Both the position numbers and the translations under genes were made by a program. 64,000 bases of DNA from Loktanella sp. DSM 29012 (lineage in GTDB: Bacteria; Pseudomonadota; Alphaproteobacteria; Rhodobacterales; Rhodobacteraceae): contig NZ_FOEJ01000005.1 in the NCBI RefSeq assembly GCF_900110705.1, positions 62,001-126,000 of the forward strand. The letters are read 5' to 3'. A model generated the notes under the pieces. That model was not told the origin of the DNA. It searched no databases and worked only from the letters and a program-made list of their open reading frames with translations. Within the stretch, counting starts at the first letter, position 1. Each line of letters starts with the position of its first letter. Shown here in pieces: positions 8,935-16,035 of this stretch.

Positions 8935-9597
8935 TCAGCCCTGCGCGATGGCGCGCAGGCCTGCGCGGTCCTTCAGCGTGACGTGGCCACGGGTCTGACT
9001 GATCAATCCCCGCTTGGCGAAATCCTGCAACACGCGCGATATGACTTCGCGCGCGGTGCCCAACTCGCTGGCCAACTGCTGATGCGTGGTGGCGATGTCC
9101 TGATCGTCGCGGGCCAGACCCAACAGACGTTCCGCCAACCGCACGTCGATCCGGCCAAAGGCCACGTCGTCCACGACGCGCAGCAGATCGATCAGGCGAC
9201 GCGAATATGCCGCAAAGACGAAGGACCGGAACGCGGGTTCCTCGGACACCAGTTGATCGAACGACGCGCGTGGCAGAATGATCGCCGTCACGTCCGTCTC
9301 GGCGATGCCTTCGGCGTTATAGGCCTCTTCCGCCAGCATGCAGGCGGTGGTCAGAACGCAGCTTTCGCCGGCTTCGACCCGGTACAGCACAATATCGCGG
9401 CCATTTTCAGAGGTTTGCGATACGCGGATCGTCCCATCCACCAGAAACATCAGGCTGTCGGGAATGTTGCTGGGACCGAACACGGATTTACCGGCGGCAT
9501 AGCGTACGGTCTGGGCGCTGCGCTGCAGCCTGTCACGCACATCACGCGGCAGTGCTGCGGTGCCCTGAAACCGTGCTGTCCAATCCTCGACCTTCAT
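8935..9597 (-). CDS. Crp/Fnr family transcriptional regulator
   Basis: DNA-binding regulator of 220 residues. It has an N-terminal cyclic-nucleotide-type beta-roll, a long dimer helix, and a C-terminal winged helix with TTHQQLASELGTAREVISRVLQDF. There is no Fnr-type N-terminal cysteine cluster. A pair of cysteines, Cys80 and Cys86, lies in GESCVLTTACMLA, a feature seen in Crp/Fnr proteins next to sulfur genes and a plausible persulfide- or redox-sensing site. It sits inside the sulfur gene run, upstream of the DUF2892-YeeE-persulfide genes that it probably controls. The ligand is not shown by the sequence. Confidence 0.9.
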   Translation of the reverse strand: MKVEDWTARFQGTAALPRDVRDRLQRSAQTVRYAAGKSVFGPSNIPDSLMFLVDGTIRVSQTSENGRDIVLYRVEAGESCVLTTACMLAEEAYNAEGIAETDVTAIILPRASFDQLVSEEPAFRSFVFAAYSRRLIDLLRVVDDVAFGRIDVRLAERLLGLARDDQDIATTHQQLASELGTAREVISRVLQDFAKRGLISQTRGHVTLKDRAGLRAIAQG

Positions 9598-9731
9598 CGC
9601 GCGCTCGCGATGGCTGGCGCGGATGTGGCATCGAATGCGGGTGTGAACGGCATGACAGGGTGTTCCTCGGGTGGTGGATACCTGCCATGACGCCGCCCGC
9701 CGGGCAAGTCACCTTGCCGGGATCTGTCCCG

Positions 9732-9911
9732 CTAGTCCGCGGTCGGCAGTGCGGCGCAATGCGCACCCGCCCCTGCGAGGCCGGACCCCAAGGCCAGCGC
9801 AGGTGGTGCCTGAAACGGATCAAGGGGCGCGCTGTTGGCGAGGTCCACGCCCAGCAGCCCGAGCAAAAGCGCGAAGACGGTCACGACCGTCAGTCTGCGT
9901 GTCATCATCAT
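9732..9911 (-). CDS. Small secreted protein of unknown function
   Basis: A 57-59 residue product depending on which of three consecutive ATG codons (9911, 9908, 9905) is used; the first overlaps the YeeE/YedE stop as ATGA. It begins MTRRLTVVTVFALLLGLLG, a signal peptide or single anchor ending near NSA, followed by a short proline/alanine-rich tail with one cysteine (GAHCAALPTAD). I do not recognise the family. The overlap and shared strand argue for co-expression with the thiosulfate-type transporter; the cysteine in a periplasmic tail could carry sulfur, but that is speculation. Confidence 0.55.
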   Translation of the reverse strand: MMMTRRLTVVTVFALLLGLLGVDLANSAPLDPFQAPPALALGSGLAGAGAHCAALPTAD

Positions 9912-11026
9912 CCGTCCAATCCCAATGCCTTGCGGATGCGGATCCCCTGGAATGCCCCGGCAAAGGCTGCCACGAACCAGACCCAGCCGTGCAGGCTGCC
10001 CGTCGAAATCCCCGAAAAGAACGCGCCGACGTTGCAACCAAAGGCAAGGCGCGACGAATAGCCCAGCAGGAACCCGGCAATGATCGTGCCGATCCAGGCC
10101 CGCAGCGGCAGTTGCGGCAGACGGGCGGACAGTCCTGACCGCCATGCGGCGATGATGAACGCGCCACCGATGATGCCGATATTCGTCAGTGACGTGACAT
10201 CGGTCAGCAGGCTTTCCGCGATGCGGGCCTGGTTCGTGGGCAGCGTCCAGAACGCAGACCCCGAAATATCCATGCCCAGCGCCGTGGCACCCTTGGCCGC
10301 CCACAGCCCCAGACCGTAGACGACGCCCCAGGGCTGGCCGGCAACCACGAGGTTCGCCAATGCCAGTGCCGCCAGCAGACCCGCCGCGATCCACAATCTG
10401 CGCGGCAGGCTGCGGGCACCCGGTGCTGCCAAGTACAGCGCCAGTCCTGCGACCGCCGCCAGCCCTGCCAGCGTCAGCACCAGACCGGACGTGCCGGACA
10501 ACACGACGACCGGAGCAGTGCCCAGATTGGTCCACCACAGCAGATGATAGGCCCCGGCAAAGGACCCTATGGCAAAGAACGGCAGCGCCAGCGCGCTGAC
10601 CGGGTTGCCGCTGCCCGCGTTGACCAATGTGCCGGACCCGCAGCCCAGCACGATCTGCATGCAGGCCCCGAACACAAAGGCGCCGCCGATCATGGCATAA
10701 CCCACCGGCGCATGTGCGCCGATCAGTTCGGTGCCGTTATTGGTGATCAGCGGGATTGCCACCAATGCGACCAGCGCAATCGACAACAATTGCGCAATCA
10801 GACCCGCAGGTTCGCGACGCAGGATCATGGCGCGCCACGGTCCTGCGAAACCGAACCTGAACCCCTCGAGGATCAGGCCGAACCCCAGACCCACCGCCAG
10901 CAACAGTCCGTAACGGACCCCCGCTGTGGCAGACAGGGCAAGGATCGCGACCAGCGCGCCGAGGATGAGGCCCGTGCGCGTCAGGGTCGACGACTGGGCG
11001 GGCGCGATTGCGGCAGCACTGGTCAT
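9908..11026 (-). CDS. YeeE/YedE family transporter (full length)
   Basis: Inner-membrane protein of 372 residues with about ten hydrophobic segments, of the YeeE/TsuA thiosulfate-transporter family. It has QIVLGCGSGTLVNAGSGN near residue 115 and SRLAFGCNVGAFFSGIS followed by GSLHGW near the C-terminus; the cysteines in both motifs are the conserved pathway residues. The ATG at 11026 is four bases past the rhodanese stop, so I prefer it to an upstream start at 11083. Pairing with a periplasmic rhodanese suggests that sulfur is transferred outside and then taken up. It is a second, unsplit system in the same locus. Confidence 0.88.
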   Translation of the reverse strand: MTSAAAIAPAQSSTLTRTGLILGALVAILALSATAGVRYGLLLAVGLGFGLILEGFRFGFAGPWRAMILRREPAGLIAQLLSIALVALVAIPLITNNGTELIGAHAPVGYAMIGGAFVFGACMQIVLGCGSGTLVNAGSGNPVSALALPFFAIGSFAGAYHLLWWTNLGTAPVVVLSGTSGLVLTLAGLAAVAGLALYLAAPGARSLPRRLWIAAGLLAALALANLVVAGQPWGVVYGLGLWAAKGATALGMDISGSAFWTLPTNQARIAESLLTDVTSLTNIGIIGGAFIIAAWRSGLSARLPQLPLRAWIGTIIAGFLLGYSSRLAFGCNVGAFFSGISTGSLHGWVWFVAAFAGAFQGIRIRKALGLDG

Positions 11027-11030
11027 CGGA

Positions 11031-11984
11031 TCAGAACACGCTCTTGATCTGGTTCCACATCCGGCGGACCGGACCCGGCACATTTGCCATCTCGTAGCCG
11101 GCGTTCGACCAGCCGACCATCGATTCAGGGTAAAGCTTTACGTTTTCCAGACCGGCCAGCTCGCTCATCGCGAACCAGTTCGTTGCCGCCCAATGGCCCG
11201 TGTTGCAGAAACTGATGATCGGCGCGCCGTCGTCCAGGTTCCCCTCGCTTGCCAATGCGCGGGCCGCATCGGCATCGACGATCACGGGGCCGTTGCTGAA
11301 CCAGTTGGAATGGGTGAAATATTCGGATTGCGGCAGCGTGCCGGGCTTGGCCGCAGCCGGGTGGGCCTGCTCGCCCGCCCAGAAGGATTCGGGGCGTGCG
11401 TCAACCAAGGTCGCCTCTGCCTCGCCATTGACGATGGACAGCACCTCTTCGCGGGTCGCAAGCCACTCGTCGGAATAGGATACCTCGATCATGCTTGGCT
11501 CTGGCGTGACCTCGCCTTCATCCAGCGACAGCCCGGCTTCGGTCCAGGCGTTCATGCCGCCGTTCAGGATCGCCAACTGGCTGACGCCGCTGGATTTCAG
11601 CGTCCAATACACACGCGCCGCCGCGCCAAAGTCGGTCACATCGCTGCCCTGATGCACGATCAGCGTGGGGCGGTCGCGGGTAACGCCCAGGTCGCGCAGC
11701 ACTTCTTGCAGGCGCTCCTCGGGCACAACCTCACCGGGGCTTTCTGCGCTGCCACGGAACAACGCGTAGGGCGCGCTGACCGCACCGGGGATATGCCCCG
11801 CTGCGTGAACGCTGTTGCCGTCGGCATCGGGCGACCGGATGTCGATCACCAGCGGACTGACCTCAGGCTGCACTTCGGCAAATTCGGCCGGTGTCAGCAA
11901 CGGGCCGAAATCATTGGCCTGGGCGAATGCGGGCAGCGGCAAGGCCAGCGCCCCCGCAAGTGTGATAGCTGTAAAGCGTGTCAT
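11031..11984 (-). CDS. Periplasmic tandem-domain rhodanese sulfurtransferase
   Basis: Thiosulfate- or mercaptopyruvate-type sulfurtransferase of 317 residues exported by a signal peptide (MTRFTAITLAGALALPLPAFA). Domain 1 (about 28-155) has the rhodanese signature but carries HQGS where an active cysteine loop would be, so it looks structural. Domain 2 (about 165-315) has SFCNTGHWAA with the candidate active Cys260. The ATG at 11984 is preceded by AGAGGA; an upstream start at 12164 would destroy the signal peptide. It is the first gene of the YeeE/YedE operon and probably mobilises sulfane sulfur in the periplasm for the transporter. Confidence 0.88.
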   Translation of the reverse strand: MTRFTAITLAGALALPLPAFAQANDFGPLLTPAEFAEVQPEVSPLVIDIRSPDADGNSVHAAGHIPGAVSAPYALFRGSAESPGEVVPEERLQEVLRDLGVTRDRPTLIVHQGSDVTDFGAAARVYWTLKSSGVSQLAILNGGMNAWTEAGLSLDEGEVTPEPSMIEVSYSDEWLATREEVLSIVNGEAEATLVDARPESFWAGEQAHPAAAKPGTLPQSEYFTHSNWFSNGPVIVDADAARALASEGNLDDGAPIISFCNTGHWAATNWFAMSELAGLENVKLYPESMVGWSNAGYEMANVPGPVRRMWNQIKSVF

Positions 11985-12103
11985 GGCATGTCCTCTGACA
12001 ACAAAGTTCAGCCCACGAGATACACTGCAAAACAAGGGTTTCAAGGCCGCGGGACTGCCCGACATGTGTCCGCCGAAAACAGAACACAGACGCGATCGCG
12101 GTT

Positions 12104-12200: not shown

Positions 12201-12839
12201 TCACCACCGCAGGAAAAAATACCCCAGAATGCCGCCGCAGCCTGCCACGGCCAAGACCGCAAGACTGTACCAACTGGCGTAGAACAGTGGTGAATTCTCG
12301 ATGCAATAGACCGAATAGACCGTCGCCGCCGCGGCACCCGCACCCAGCCCCGCAACGGCACCGCACAGTGCAGGGTGTTCCGGCGCACCGCGCCGCAGCG
12401 CTGCCAACAGGCCGATGAGGATGGGCACAGACAAGACCGGGATCGATATCAGGCAGGTCACGATGGATTTGCCACGCAGCGCCATGGGCCAGGCATCGCC
12501 CGGTGTCGTGACCAGCGTCATGGCCACCAGCAGGATAAGCGCCAGAGGAATACCCCAGATCAGCCGCGTAGCACCGCTGCGCCCCGCCGGGCGCGCCGTG
12601 GCATGCAGCCAGAACAACGCCAGACAGGCCAGCACCAACGGCAGGACCGTTTTCGCAAATAGCGCAAGGTCGCTGACGATCCCAATCAGGTCCGACCGCA
12701 CGCCCCAGAACGCGACAAACAGTGCAGATGTGCCTACCAGCCCCGCCAGAAGGCCCGTCGCGATCTGCCTTGTCAGATAACCGCGCGGCAACGGTGTCAG
12801 TTCTGACCCCAGCGATTTGATCAGGTCATCGGTATTCAT
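12201..12839 (-). CDS. nrsF: NrsF family anti-sigma factor (DUF1109)
   Basis: Integral membrane anti-sigma factor expected to hold the ECF sigma factor encoded just upstream. The 212-residue protein has a short cytosolic N-terminus ([20 protein letters not shown]) and about six hydrophobic segments. Cysteines occur in several membrane segments (TCLIS, ALCGAV, VYCIE, AGCGG); in Caulobacter NrsF conserved cysteines are needed for metal response. The start overlaps the sigma-factor stop as ATGA. In Caulobacter the SigF-NrsF pair responds to chromate, cadmium or copper-type stress and controls DUF2282/DUF692 genes, which here lie across the divergent promoter region. Confidence 0.9.
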   Translation of the reverse strand: MNTDDLIKSLGSELTPLPRGYLTRQIATGLLAGLVGTSALFVAFWGVRSDLIGIVSDLALFAKTVLPLVLACLALFWLHATARPAGRSGATRLIWGIPLALILLVAMTLVTTPGDAWPMALRGKSIVTCLISIPVLSVPILIGLLAALRRGAPEHPALCGAVAGLGAGAAAATVYSVYCIENSPLFYASWYSLAVLAVAGCGGILGYFFLRW

Positions 12840-13426
12840 TCACGCGCCTTTCCGGATTGTTCCGTCTGGTCGGCAACCGCGAGGGCTGACAGTTTCGCCA
12901 TGGCCCGGTGCAATGCAACCCGTACCGCGCCGGGCGTCATGCCCAACGTGCGGCCCACCTCTTCGGCGGTGCGACCCTCCAGCCTGATCTGCCGCACGAT
13001 CAAGGCCGACGTAGCGTCAAGCTTACCCAGCAGACGATCCAGATCAGCCGCAGCCGTGGGGTCATGGCTGGCCTCATCGACGATATCAAGCTCGGTGCCG
13101 TCATAGGATACGGTCGGACGACGCATCGACAGCCGCATCGCGTCCACCGTCTTGTAGCGTGCGATTGCATAGGCCCAGGGGCCGACCGGTTCGCCGTCGC
13201 GCCAGGTGTGACGTTTTTCGTGAATGGCGATCAGCACGTTTTGCAAAATGTCCTCGCAATCCTCTTTTGGGCGGCCGCAGCGTGCGGCGATGATGCCCCG
13301 CAGAACCGGGGCGATGTCGTTCAGAAACTGGACATAGGACGCACGACCGCCTGCATTGGCGTCGCGCAACAAGCTGGCCCAGCGGTCTTCTCTTGTGCGT
13401 CCCATATCATCCAGTTCGTCGGTCAT
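12836..13426 (-). CDS. sigF: ECF RNA polymerase sigma factor, SigF type
   Basis: Extracytoplasmic-function sigma factor of 196 residues from the ATG at 13426. Region 2 includes [18 protein letters not shown] and [16 protein letters not shown]; region 4 ends with [26 protein letters not shown]. It is translationally coupled to the NrsF anti-sigma gene and divergent from the bufferin-type cluster. No ribosome-binding site precedes 13426. A GTAACG-N16-CGAA element on the minus strand places its -10 inside the first codons, so translation may really begin at the next ATG (13405), which gives a 189-residue protein still containing all sigma regions. The start is therefore uncertain. Confidence 0.9.
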
Positions 13427-13440
13427 GGGGCAGACGTTAC
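13415..13440 (-). promoter_or_regulatory. Candidate SigF-type promoter, sigma-factor side (GTAACG-N16-CGAA)
   Basis: On the minus strand GTAACG (13440-13435) is followed by exactly 16 bases and CGAA (13418-13415). As I recall, Caulobacter SigF promoters follow GTAACC-N16-CGAA. The same hexamer, spacing and -10 occur facing the bufA side. The -10 lies within the annotated sigma-factor start region, so transcription would begin close to the ATG at 13405. This would autoregulate the sigma/anti-sigma operon. Confidence 0.55.
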
Positions 13441-13527
13441 ACCCATGTCCGCGAAAAAGTCCGCAGTGTTCGATCACTGGCCGCGCCGTCGCCAAGTGTT
13501 TCATCCGGTCACGACGACGCGAGGGCT

Positions 13528-13553
13528 GTAACGCATCCGGGCCCGGCCGCGAA
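13528..13553 (+). promoter_or_regulatory. Candidate SigF-type promoter for the bufferin-type operon (GTAACG-N16-CGAA)
   Basis: GTAACG at 13528-13533 is separated by 16 bases from CGAA at 13550-13553, about 55 bases before the bufA start. It matches the minus-strand element in front of the sigma gene in sequence and spacing. The neighbouring ECF sigma factor is its expected user. This predicts that bufA, bufB, bufC and doxX respond to the NrsF-sensed stress. Confidence 0.65.
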
Positions 13554-13607
13554 TTGCCCTGCATCGGACGCCACAACGGTGCCGACAGATTGATGGGAGA
13601 ACACCAG

Positions 13608-13901
13608 ATGACGACCAAGACAACGACCCTCGCCCTTGCCCTCATCGGCGCTTGCGTTTCCGTGACCGGCGCATCCGCACAGGATATGGAAAAATGCTTT
13701 GGCATTTCGCTGGCCGGTGAAAACGGCTGCGCCGCTGGTCCCGGCACGACCTGCGCCGGCACCTCGACCATCGACTACCAGGGCAATGCCTGGGCGCTGG
13801 TGCCTGCCGGCACCTGCGAGGACATGGTCATCGACGCTGCCGCTGACGGCGAAAAGCGTATGGGTTCGCTCGAGGCATTGGAGCGCGACCTGCCCGCATG
13901 A
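13608..13901 (+). CDS. bufA1: Bufferin-type RiPP precursor (DUF2282, BufA1)
   Basis: Precursor peptide of 97 residues whose cysteines are expected to be modified to copper-binding thiooxazoles by the next two gene products and exported to the periplasm. It has a signal peptide (to about GASAQ, residue 25) followed by MEKCFGIS, a second Cys41 in [13 protein letters not shown] with Cys49, then DYQGNAW and PAGTCEDM with Cys70. This four-cysteine layout is the DUF2282/BufA1 pattern. The ATG at 13608 follows GGGAGA. It is headed by a sigma-factor-type promoter and followed by DUF692 and DUF2063 genes, the known partners. Confidence 0.9.
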
Positions 13902-13976
13902 CCCTATGGGGCAGCGCGCGGCGGTCCCTGCCGCACGCTGCCCTGCCACCTGCACCCAACCCCGAAGGATTTCGTC

Positions 13977-14822
13977 GTGACACAACTGCCAGAAACAACA
14001 GGCATCGGTTTCAAACGCACCCATTTCGACGCCCTGCGCCAGACGCCGAACCGGTTGGGTTTCATCGAGGTGCATGCCGAAAACTACATGGGTGATGGCG
14101 GCCCGCCCCACGCGCAGCTGACCGCGCTGCGTGAAGAATACGCGCTGTCCGTGCACGGTGTCGGCCTTTCCATCGGCGGGGCAGAGCCGCTGGACCGCGA
14201 ACACCTGAACCGCCTGAAACAGCTGTGCAACCGCTACGCGCCCGACAGTTTTTCCGAACATCTGGCATGGTCCAGTCATGGTGGCGCGTTTTTGAATGAC
14301 CTCTTGCCCCTGCCCTATGACGCAACAACGCTGACTGTCGTTTGCGACCACATCGATCAGGTTCAGGACACGCTGGGCCGCCGAATGCTGCTGGAAAATC
14401 CGTCGACCTATGTGACCTTCGAGACCTCGACCCTGGCCGAGACCGATTTCCTGACGCAGATCACGGCCCGCACCGGATGCGGGTTGTTGCTGGACATCAA
14501 CAATGTCTTTGTCAGTTGCACCAATCACCGCACCGATCCGCGTGCCTATCTGGCCGACTTCCCACTGCATGCGGTGGGCGAAATCCACTTGGGCGGACAC
14601 GACGCCGAGGACCTGCCCTCTGGCCCCTTGCTGATCGACGCGCATGGATCACCCGTCGCGGACCCTGTCTGGACCCTCTATGCCGAGACAATCATGCGGA
14701 TCGGGCCACGGGCCACGCTGATCGAATGGGACACGGATGTGCCTGCCCTGTCGGTGCTGCTGGACGAGGCGGACCGGGCGGACGCAATTCTGGAGGGCGC
14801 TCGCCATGCACGCGCATCGTGA
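13977..14822 (+). CDS. bufB: DUF692 multinuclear iron oxidative enzyme (BufB)
   Basis: MNIO family enzyme that would oxidatively modify cysteines of the DUF2282 precursor. The 281-residue TIM-barrel protein starts at a GTG with AAGGA upstream. Metal-ligand-type motifs are present in order: [13 protein letters not shown] (about 32-45), [42 protein letters not shown] and IDAHG. These His/Glu/Asp residues match the iron-binding set of DUF692. It overlaps the next gene by 17 bases, suggesting a coupled BufB-BufC complex. Length is normal for the family. Confidence 0.92.
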
Positions 14823-15546
14823 CACGCAGGCGGCATTTCGCAACGGGTTGAAAACGGGGGCGGTGCCGCCGGGCGTGACCGCTGTGGGCGATGTCGCGCG
14901 CCGGTTTTCGGTCTATCGCAACACGGTCGCGCATTCGCTGACGGACGCGCTGTGCCAGCGGTTTCCGACCGTGCTCCGCCTCGTGGGGGATGCGTTTTTC
15001 AAGGCGACCGCCGGTGTCTTTGTCGCCGACAACCCGCCCCGGTCTGCCATCCTGCATGACTATGGCGCGGCGTTTCCCGAATTTCTGTCCGGTTTTCCGC
15101 CAGCGGCGACACTGCCCTACCTGCCCGACATTGCCCGGATCGAGGTGCTGCGCGGACAGGCCTATCACGCAGCCGACGCCCTGCCGATGACCGCGCAATC
15201 TGTTAGCGACGCCTTTGCCGCGGGACCAGAGGAACGCGGCCTGACGCTGCACCCTTCGGTGCGTGTCATCACGTCGGACCACCCGGTCGTGGCGATCTGG
15301 GCGATGAACCAGCCCGGTGCGCGCCCCCGGCCCGTCACGCCCGAACCGCAGGCGGCCCTGATTTTCCGGCTGGGGGAAAACATCCCTGTGGTCAGCATCA
15401 CGGCAGATACCGCACGCATCGTCACGCGGCTTTTGGCGGGTGAACGGCTGGGGACAGCCTGCTCCGACGTCCCGCCACAGATCGCAAGCGTGGCGATCGA
15501 ACTTCTGATCCAACACGAGCTGATTATCCAAGTGACCCAAACCTGA
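14806..15546 (+). CDS. bufC: DUF2063 family protein (BufC, precursor-recognition partner)
   Basis: Partner of the MNIO enzyme, thought to bind the precursor leader. I start it at the ATG 14806, inside the end of bufB, with GGAGGGC upstream, giving 246 residues. The N-terminal helical DUF2063 domain is recognisable from [42 protein letters not shown] and LPDIARIEV. The C-terminal half has the RRE-like fold expected in these proteins ([14 protein letters not shown]). A 12-base gap leads to the DoxX gene. Identification rests on gene order and these motifs. Confidence 0.9.
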
Positions 15547-15558
15547 CGGGAGAATCCC

Positions 15559-16035
15559 ATGACAGACCTGACAGCCACAAGCACCACCGCCCCCGCGACC
15601 GGCCCCATGCGAAAGGCTATTCAGGCCGGCAACGCCTTGGTCGGACGCCTGCCGTGGGCCGTGCCTGCGCTGCTAGCCCGGTTGATCCCCGCATGGGTTT
15701 TCTGGGCCTCGGCCCGGACCAAGGTCGATGGCTTTGTCATTGCCGACAGCACATGGTGGCTGTTCGAGAACGAATACGCCTTGCCGCTGATCCCCGCTGC
15801 ACTGGCCGCCGTTCTAGCCACGGTGGCCGAACACGTCTTTGCCGTGCTGCTGGCACTGGGATTGGCGACGCGCCTGTCGGCAGCGGCGCTGCTGATCATG
15901 ACGGTGGTCATTCAGGTTTTCGTCTATCCCGGTGCATGGGTCACGCATGGCCTGTGGGCCGTCTGCTTTGTGGTCCTGATCGCGCGCGGACCGGGGGCCC
16001 TGTCGCTGGACCGGGCGTTAAAGCTGGATTGCTGA
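15559..16035 (+). CDS. DoxX family membrane protein
   Basis: Inner-membrane protein of 158 residues with four hydrophobic segments. It has [19 protein letters not shown] and an acidic membrane-edge motif [16 protein letters not shown], matching DoxX proteins. DoxX homologues commonly end DUF2282-DUF692-DUF2063 operons, and here the gene is 12 bases after bufC with a GGGAGA ribosome-binding site. Its job in the system is not established; redox coupling to quinone or a membrane role in export or maturation are both possible. Confidence 0.88.

Follow-up and report, generated by a model that had tools for sequence, protein, structure and literature searches.

How is a bufferin operon of the Rhodobacteraceae switched on, and does the sigma factor encoded beside it act alone? 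We examined this question in a 64,000-nucleotide stretch of Loktanella sp. DSM 29012 (contig NZ_FOEJ01000005.1, positions 62,001 to 126,000), hereafter the window, in which the bufferin operon bufA1-bufB-bufC-doxX lies divergent from sigF-nrsF, the genes of an extracytoplasmic function (ECF) sigma factor and its membrane anti-sigma factor (Table 1). We observe a CenR-type palindromic box directly upstream of the SigF-type promoter of the bufferin operon. Taken as a whole, the locus is best read as a bufferin-1 (Buf1) operon under SigF/NrsF plus, probably, the response regulator CenR, and we consider this reading likely. An earlier interpretation made from the DNA letters only (the sequence-only reading) had named SigF/NrsF as the controller; the promoter motif and the two NrsF cysteines bear this out, but sole control by SigF is improbable because the precursor promoter is immediately preceded by a conserved CenR-type box.

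The comparison was based on 133 loci, the window included, from which 3 exact duplicates and 9 loci without a precursor match were removed. A SigF gene lies near the precursor in 65 of the remaining 121 loci (57 on the opposite strand, 7 on the same strand, one not anchored), so that this neighbourhood is not a matter of chance, and the other 56 are SigF-less. Loci L106-L113 were picked for an adjacent NrsF, and L114-L123 for NrsF being present in the genome. Two loci, L138, where NrsF but no SigF was detected, and L140, which lies on a short contig, were counted as SigF-less despite promoter-like sequence, and one further SigF-less locus, whose upstream stretch was too short, was omitted from box and matrix counts (n = 55). 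Loci were placed in the Rhodobacteraceae according to their family code or record title, and two remained unclear. The nearest listed locus is that of Loktanella sp. 3ANDIMAR09, whose MNIO is 93% identical, and the nearest named relatives are Loktanella. The loci share ancestry, and the counts below are therefore not independent events.

The box, TCACG-N4-CGTGA, emerged from counts of spaced word pairs in the sequence upstream of the precursor, at SigF and SigF-less loci alike. When one mismatch is tolerated, it occurs in 32/65 SigF loci and 27/55 SigF-less loci, where single-base shuffles lead one to expect 0.65 and 0.6, respectively, and the reversed pattern gives none; these counts and those of its spacing were made on the same loci in which the box was found, and only the matrix test described below uses outside sites. 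Its position is sharply defined. With up to two mismatches allowed, 35 of the 64 SigF loci that have a promoter show the box ending 5-6 bases ahead of GTAAC, and all 24 other spacings combined account for 2 matches. This arrangement is found in 31/36 Rhodobacteraceae SigF loci, 2/26 loci of other groups and both unclear ones. Across the six Loktanella loci the arms of the box are largely conserved, while the four central bases and the five spacer bases vary. The five Loktanella relatives of the window keep the same spacing while centre and spacer vary; three of them have one mismatch.

Which regulator might bind this box? In Rhodobacter sphaeroides, chromatin immunoprecipitation sequencing (ChIP-seq) gave TGA-N8-TGA as the CenR motif. 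Examples are ACACGAGCGCGTGAG, which precedes the gene of CenR itself, and TCACCTCCTCGTGAG, which precedes the gene of an outer-membrane protein; 28 of the 31 sites lie directly upstream of the -35 element (PMC9275681). The products of 29/31 CenR units belong to the envelope or periplasm; of the remaining two units, one is msrA (PMC9275681). CenR of Sinorhizobium meliloti binds AGTCAC-N6-GTGACT, adjoining the -35 element of srlA (PMC9561847). The window box has the same sequence, TGA-N8-TGA or TCAC-N6-GTGA with one mismatch, and the same place directly upstream of a -35 element, which here is of SigF type, unlike those of the CenKR regulon sites.

The 31 published sites of R. sphaeroides served to build a scoring matrix, for which we chose a threshold of 8. 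Among the 127,972 positions of the window, the box scores 12.2 on the minus strand (rank 5) and 8.3 on the plus strand (rank 77), the latter close to 8.8, the leave-one-out median for the published sites. At score 8 the matrix finds a site in 33/37 Rhodobacteraceae SigF loci vs 45/358 random stretches of the same loci, in 46/55 SigF-less loci vs 75/532 and, for the other SigF loci together with the two unclear ones, in 13/28 vs 39/276. Dinucleotide shuffles at this score gave means of 12.1 (highest of 20 runs 18) against 46/65 SigF loci and 12.4 (highest of 20 runs 17) against 46/55 SigF-less loci; reversed sequence gave 10 loci in each class. As a matrix of published CenR sites thus finds the box in the window and in its relatives, CenR is probably the regulator that binds it, a leading candidate rather than a demonstrated binder. 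CenR or a close relative, as an envelope-stress two-component regulator, would then provide a second input, most likely activating or priming the bufferin promoter, since the box stands in fixed register upstream of the -35 element. This placement favours activation, and the sequence is compatible with both activation and priming. It also implies that an OmpR-type response regulator would act on an ECF-sigma promoter, given that the box is docked in fixed register on the SigF promoter.

The first input would come from SigF. The paired promoters proposed by the sequence-only reading are real: GTAACG-N16-CGAA is found on both sides of the intergenic region, and these two are the only GTAAC-N17-CG(A/T)(A/C) sites within the window. 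The published SigF motif of Caulobacter is GTAACC-N16-CGAA (PMC3511200). Upstream of the precursor, the strict form GTAAC-N17-CGAA is found in 33/65 SigF loci vs 1/56 SigF-less loci, and with at most one mismatch in 53/65 vs 3/56, whereas the backward motif with one mismatch gives 4/65 and 2/56. A looser motif precedes sigF in 55 of the 57 opposite-strand loci and in none of the 7 same-strand loci, the unanchored locus standing apart. In those seven (L059, L141-L144, L147 and L148), sigF-nrsF lies downstream of the bufferin operon on the same strand without a SigF motif of its own, and SigF would therefore feed back through the whole operon. Both regulatory cysteines of NrsF are present in the window and conserved among relatives (C129 in 65/65, C179 in 64/65), which, together with the promoter motif, agrees with the proposed SigF/NrsF control and with a SigF-NrsF pair of the ECF16 kind.

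The promoter of sigF also bears on where the gene begins. Its -10 element lies upstream of the ATG at 13405 but inside the longer reading from 13426, so that sigF probably starts at 13405, the first in-frame start, nine bases past the -10 element. The first in-frame start codon lies 7-20 bases past the -10 element of sigF in 44 of 55 motif-bearing loci, suggesting a nearly leaderless sigF message; in the other 11 loci it falls outside this range, which speaks against that interpretation.

By analogy with Caulobacter and related clusters, NrsF would hold SigF at the inner membrane until a thiol-reactive metal, most likely copper, disables it, probably through C129 and C179. Substitution of the Caulobacter NrsF residues C131/C181 raises basal expression of SigF-dependent genes (PMC3511200). 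Freed SigF would transcribe sigF-nrsF as well as bufA1-bufB-bufC-doxX. The two central precursor cysteines would be oxidised by the MNIO with its partner, and the peptide, once exported, would bind copper outside the cytoplasm. Copper, which the sequence-only reading had put forward, is the likely signal because the Caulobacter SigF regulon is copper-induced and a sigF mutant is copper-sensitive (PMC8224329). Could the natural signal instead be another thiol-active stress, such as chromate, cadmium, gold or hypochlorite, with the peptide serving as a general scavenger? SigF genes of Caulobacter respond to chromate and cadmium (PMC3511200), and a homologous cluster of Cupriavidus is induced by gold and silver as well as copper (as cited in PMC8224329). 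Against this, inactivation of Caulobacter sigF severely affects growth in the presence of copper, the mutant being reported as similarly sensitive to chromate and cadmium (PMC8224329), and the S. meliloti homologue is not induced by H2O2, cadmium or chromate (PMC6180224). Chromate and cadmium, which had been suggested beside copper, are thus weak candidates for a general signal, and we regard a signal other than copper as unlikely, if the least so of the alternatives considered here.

How common is this dual arrangement? Among 149 Rhodobacteraceae genomes, DUF2282 was detected in 106, NrsF above cut-off in 22 and both in 17. The two lie within 5 kb of each other in only 13, so that bufferins linked to SigF/NrsF make up only a minority in this family. 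A tandem form of the box, with a 16-base period and one mismatch allowed, occurs near DUF2282 in 35/149 genomes, in 34 cases at 154-226 bases upstream of the DUF2282 domain and in one case downstream. It is found in 35/93 DUF2282 genomes without an adjacent NrsF and in none of the 13 with one. A perfect tandem box lies about 160 bases downstream of a DUF2282 domain rather than upstream (G094:C9:6221-6251). Beside the SigF-less operons, no regulator gene was recognised by eye among the neighbour clusters present in at least 5 loci, although rarer neighbours may exist; one recurrent neighbour cluster, in 33 loci, resembles threonyl-tRNA synthetase (by eye).

The box is not confined to bufferin loci. 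Among the matches listed, exact TCACG-N4-CGTGA occurs at 115 places in 37 genomes vs 44 for the backward pattern, and 81 of the listed places were fetched for analysis of their neighbours, whose family names were read from the representatives L258, L260 and L269. A fasciclin protein lies near the exact box at 6/81 loci from five Rhodobacteraceae genomes (L226, L235, L260, L269, L281 and L284), accompanied by an MsrB-type protein in three of the six and by an adjacent ECF sigma factor and RskA-type anti-sigma factor in two. An EF-hand protein or its ECF sigma factor lies near the exact box at 3/81 loci from three genomes (L228, L258 and L278); there the EF-hand gene is followed by the ECF sigma gene, divergent from a DUF983 gene, and the box occupies the intervening stretch. 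In R. sphaeroides, msrA and numerous envelope proteins are members of the CenR regulon (PMC9275681), and the fasciclin/MsrB and EF-hand/ECF loci may fit one envelope programme, which we offer as a lead only. We lean slightly towards a broader picture in which the CenKR envelope-stress regulon takes in the bufferin operons of the Rhodobacteraceae, a frequent form having two tandem CenR boxes without a neighbouring SigF and a minority form one box on a SigF promoter. SigF and the second box would then be alternative inputs, and CenR would also reach the fasciclin/MsrB and EF-hand/ECF operons as part of one periplasmic protection programme.

If SigF/NrsF were the sole control, as in the Caulobacter model, the box would be a passive relic or a product of chance. 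Caulobacter authors describe CC3254 as controlled by SigF only, and 24 of the 26 SigF loci outside the Rhodobacteraceae, rhizobial ones included, lack the box, unlike the Loktanella module. Several other observations also weigh against joint control by SigF and CenR. The window box has one mismatch to TCACG-N4-CGTGA, and its stronger matrix orientation faces sigF, whereas published activating sites face with transcription. The box test is negative in five of the 36 Rhodobacteraceae SigF loci, in one case solely through a spacing of 4, and the Loktanella relatives L073 and L071 have two and three mismatches, respectively. The two exact copies among SigF-less loci are those of L138 and L140, whose status is doubtful. 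At score 10 the matrix finds only 4/28 other SigF loci vs 15/276 in the background which, compared with 13/28 at score 8, indicates a weaker box signal in SigF loci outside the Rhodobacteraceae. The tandem pattern has 28 matches elsewhere in the 149 genomes (the backward pattern has 7 in all). On the SigF side, the precursor promoter with at most one mismatch and fixed spacing is missing in 12/65 SigF loci, even if the looser motif is present in 64/65, and the window NrsF scores 89.8 bits against the NCBIfam AntiSigF_NrsF equivalog, below its cut-off of 300, for which reason we do not claim it as the exact Caulobacter equivalog. Nevertheless, a relic or chance match accords poorly with arms that are largely kept while the centre and spacer vary, with the sharp spacing to the SigF promoter, and with the presence of the box in SigF-less bufferin operons. 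Sole control by SigF is accordingly improbable in our view, and dual control by SigF and, probably, CenR is preferred.

Binding sites of OmpR-family regulators can resemble each other. That the box is real but bound by an OmpR-type regulator other than CenR, an idea favoured by the six fasciclin and three EF-hand/ECF box loci, neither term occurring in the main text of PMC9275681 on CenKR of R. sphaeroides, is the least probable alternative, as the box is found by the matrix of CenR ChIP-seq sites and the CenR units have mainly envelope or periplasmic products.

As a SigF-controlled bufferin cluster, the locus adds one more clean case to a system already published. The second switch, if true, would tie copper-binding peptides to a regulator that guards the envelope, predict bufferin expression on envelope disturbance without metal, provide a testable case of a response regulator at an ECF-sigma promoter, and suggest a mode of control for the many bufferin operons of the Rhodobacteraceae that have no SigF next to them.

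The gene block itself is a Buf1 operon from a Loktanella-like bacterium within the Rhodobacteraceae. All six genes lie in the order and at the positions given by the sequence-only reading, with Pfam matches above the curated cut-offs (Table 1), and the start of nrsF overlaps the stop codon of sigF. Features of Buf1 clusters present here are a DUF2282 protein with four conserved cysteines, an adjacent maturase-type MNIO, DUF2063 and DoxX. BufB reaches 386.5 bits against MNIO_BufB (NCBIfam NF050167, cut-off 310), which supports the proposed bufferin cluster as one of the bufferin-1 type. The NCBIfam equivalog scores for an oxazolin/HvfABC cluster remain below their cut-offs (HvfB 241/360 bits; HvfC 39/142 for bufC; HvfX 56/80 for doxX). 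The MNIO, DUF2282 and NrsF families each have a single match in the genome.

Table 1 Features of the bufferin module in the window (positions are those of the 64,000-nucleotide stretch)
Feature	Position	Strand	Remarks
nrsF, membrane anti-sigma factor, 212 aa	12201..12839	-	PF06532, E 3.6e-48
sigF, ECF sigma factor, revised start, 189 aa	12836..13405	-	Sigma70_r2/r4; open frame reaches ATG at 13426
SigF-type promoter of sigF-nrsF	13415..13440	-	GTAACG-N16-CGAA, read 13440-13415
CenR-type palindromic box	13509..13522		TCACG-ACGA-CGCGA, five bases before the -35 (GTAAC) of the precursor promoter
SigF-type promoter of bufferin operon	13528..13553	+	GTAACG-N16-CGAA
bufA1, DUF2282 four-cysteine precursor, 97 aa including apparent signal peptide	13608..13901	+	PF10048, E 1.2e-22
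bufB, MNIO (DUF692) bufferin maturase	13977..14822	+	MbnB_TglH_ChrH PF05114, E 3.5e-106; GTG start
bufC, DUF2063 partner	14806..15546	+	PF09836, E 8.6e-22; 17-base overlap with bufB
doxX, DoxX-family membrane protein	15559..16035	+	PF07681, E 7.1e-16

The cysteine pattern of the precursor, also proposed earlier, is strongly conserved, each of the four residues being kept in at least 118 aligned relatives (C30 120/120, C41 119/119, C49 119/120, C70 118/120). A fifth cysteine, C16, lies in the apparent signal peptide and is present in only 4/120 relatives, on which ground a lipoprotein reading of the precursor was rejected. The N-terminus is hydrophobic with an ASA-Q site (by eye) and, because of this apparent signal peptide, the mature product would be shorter than the 97 residues previously assumed. 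Caulobacter bufferin 1 is reported to carry 5-thiooxazoles at its central cysteines and to bind copper (PMC13097082; PMC12452194), and in Buf1 the two central cysteines are described as modified and the outer two as joined in a disulphide (PMC12452194). Conversion of all four cysteines into thiooxazoles, as the sequence-only reading had it, is therefore not expected; rather, the central two would be modified and the outer two joined. In the MNIO, 26 positions occupied by His, Asp, Glu, Asn or Cys are kept in at least 97% of the locus set.

The cluster and its SigF control are already in print. Caulobacter crescentus CC3252-CC3257 comprises the same six families (NrsF, SigF, DUF2282, DUF692, DUF2063 and DoxX), with GTAAC-N17-CGAA promoters and both NrsF cysteines as here, and a divergent orientation that follows from the gene numbering and the stated operons; the same operon and promoter were shown experimentally to be under SigF (PMC3511200). 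In S. meliloti, rpoE7-ecfR7 (ECF16) is divergent from the four genes SMb20530-SMb20527, of which DUF692 and DUF2063 are named and which are called orthologous to CC3254-CC3257, with GTAAC-N16/17-CGAA promoters of the same type as here (PMC6180224). The Buf1 clusters of Antoine et al. 2025 likewise have the core genes, the four cysteines and genes for a sigma factor and NrsF (PMC12452194). What the Loktanella module adds, on a comparison with Caulobacter that covered the window side for the box, is the CenR-type box.

For a palindromic box next to a SigF promoter, we found no published description. The terms promoter, CenR, two-component and response regulator do not appear in the main text of PMC12452194. 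DUF692, DUF2282, DUF2063, DoxX, copper and metal are absent from the main text of PMC9275681 on CenKR of R. sphaeroides, as are copper, RpoE7 and SMb20530 from PMC9561847 on CenKR of S. meliloti. Our literature search, with many subscription papers and supplements outside its scope, returned no joint mention of CenR and DUF692, and in the one CenKR paper among those listed for CenR with copper, the metal is that of a microscope grid only.

The Caulobacter SigF regulon also comprises a second bufferin operon and a YedY gene (PMC3511200), whereas in this genome the SigF motif appears as a promoter only in this module. Exact GTAACS-N16-CGAA has 6 sites in the genome, fewer than the 11 of the backward pattern. 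Two are the module's own, and the other four lie inside open reading frames predicted by a simple gene caller and are absent from the five exact matches of the nearest relative. A wider SigF regulon was rejected on these counts and, on exact sites, the regulon may consist of this module alone. No SigF motif was found around the stronger of the genome's two Oxidored_molyb matches, the only one whose surroundings were covered. A class-wide composite of box and GTAAC was likewise rejected: its exact form occurs in 3/386 genomes, that of the window included, and no bufferin gene was detected within the fetched stretch of the other two.

A Crp-type regulator, a YeeE-like sulphur transporter and a rhodanese adjoin the module at window positions 8935-12000, an arrangement shared only by the closest of the five Loktanella relatives. 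These three and an aldehyde dehydrogenase, found beside the module in that relative only, were rejected as module parts; in two of the five relatives (L071 and L075) most of one flank lies outside the fetched stretch. Finally, L172 (Novosphingobium sp. MW5) and L156 (Pararhodobacter) have almost the same bufferin and sigF promoter regions despite the distance between the hosts named for them, pointing to a recent transfer or a mislabelled contig.

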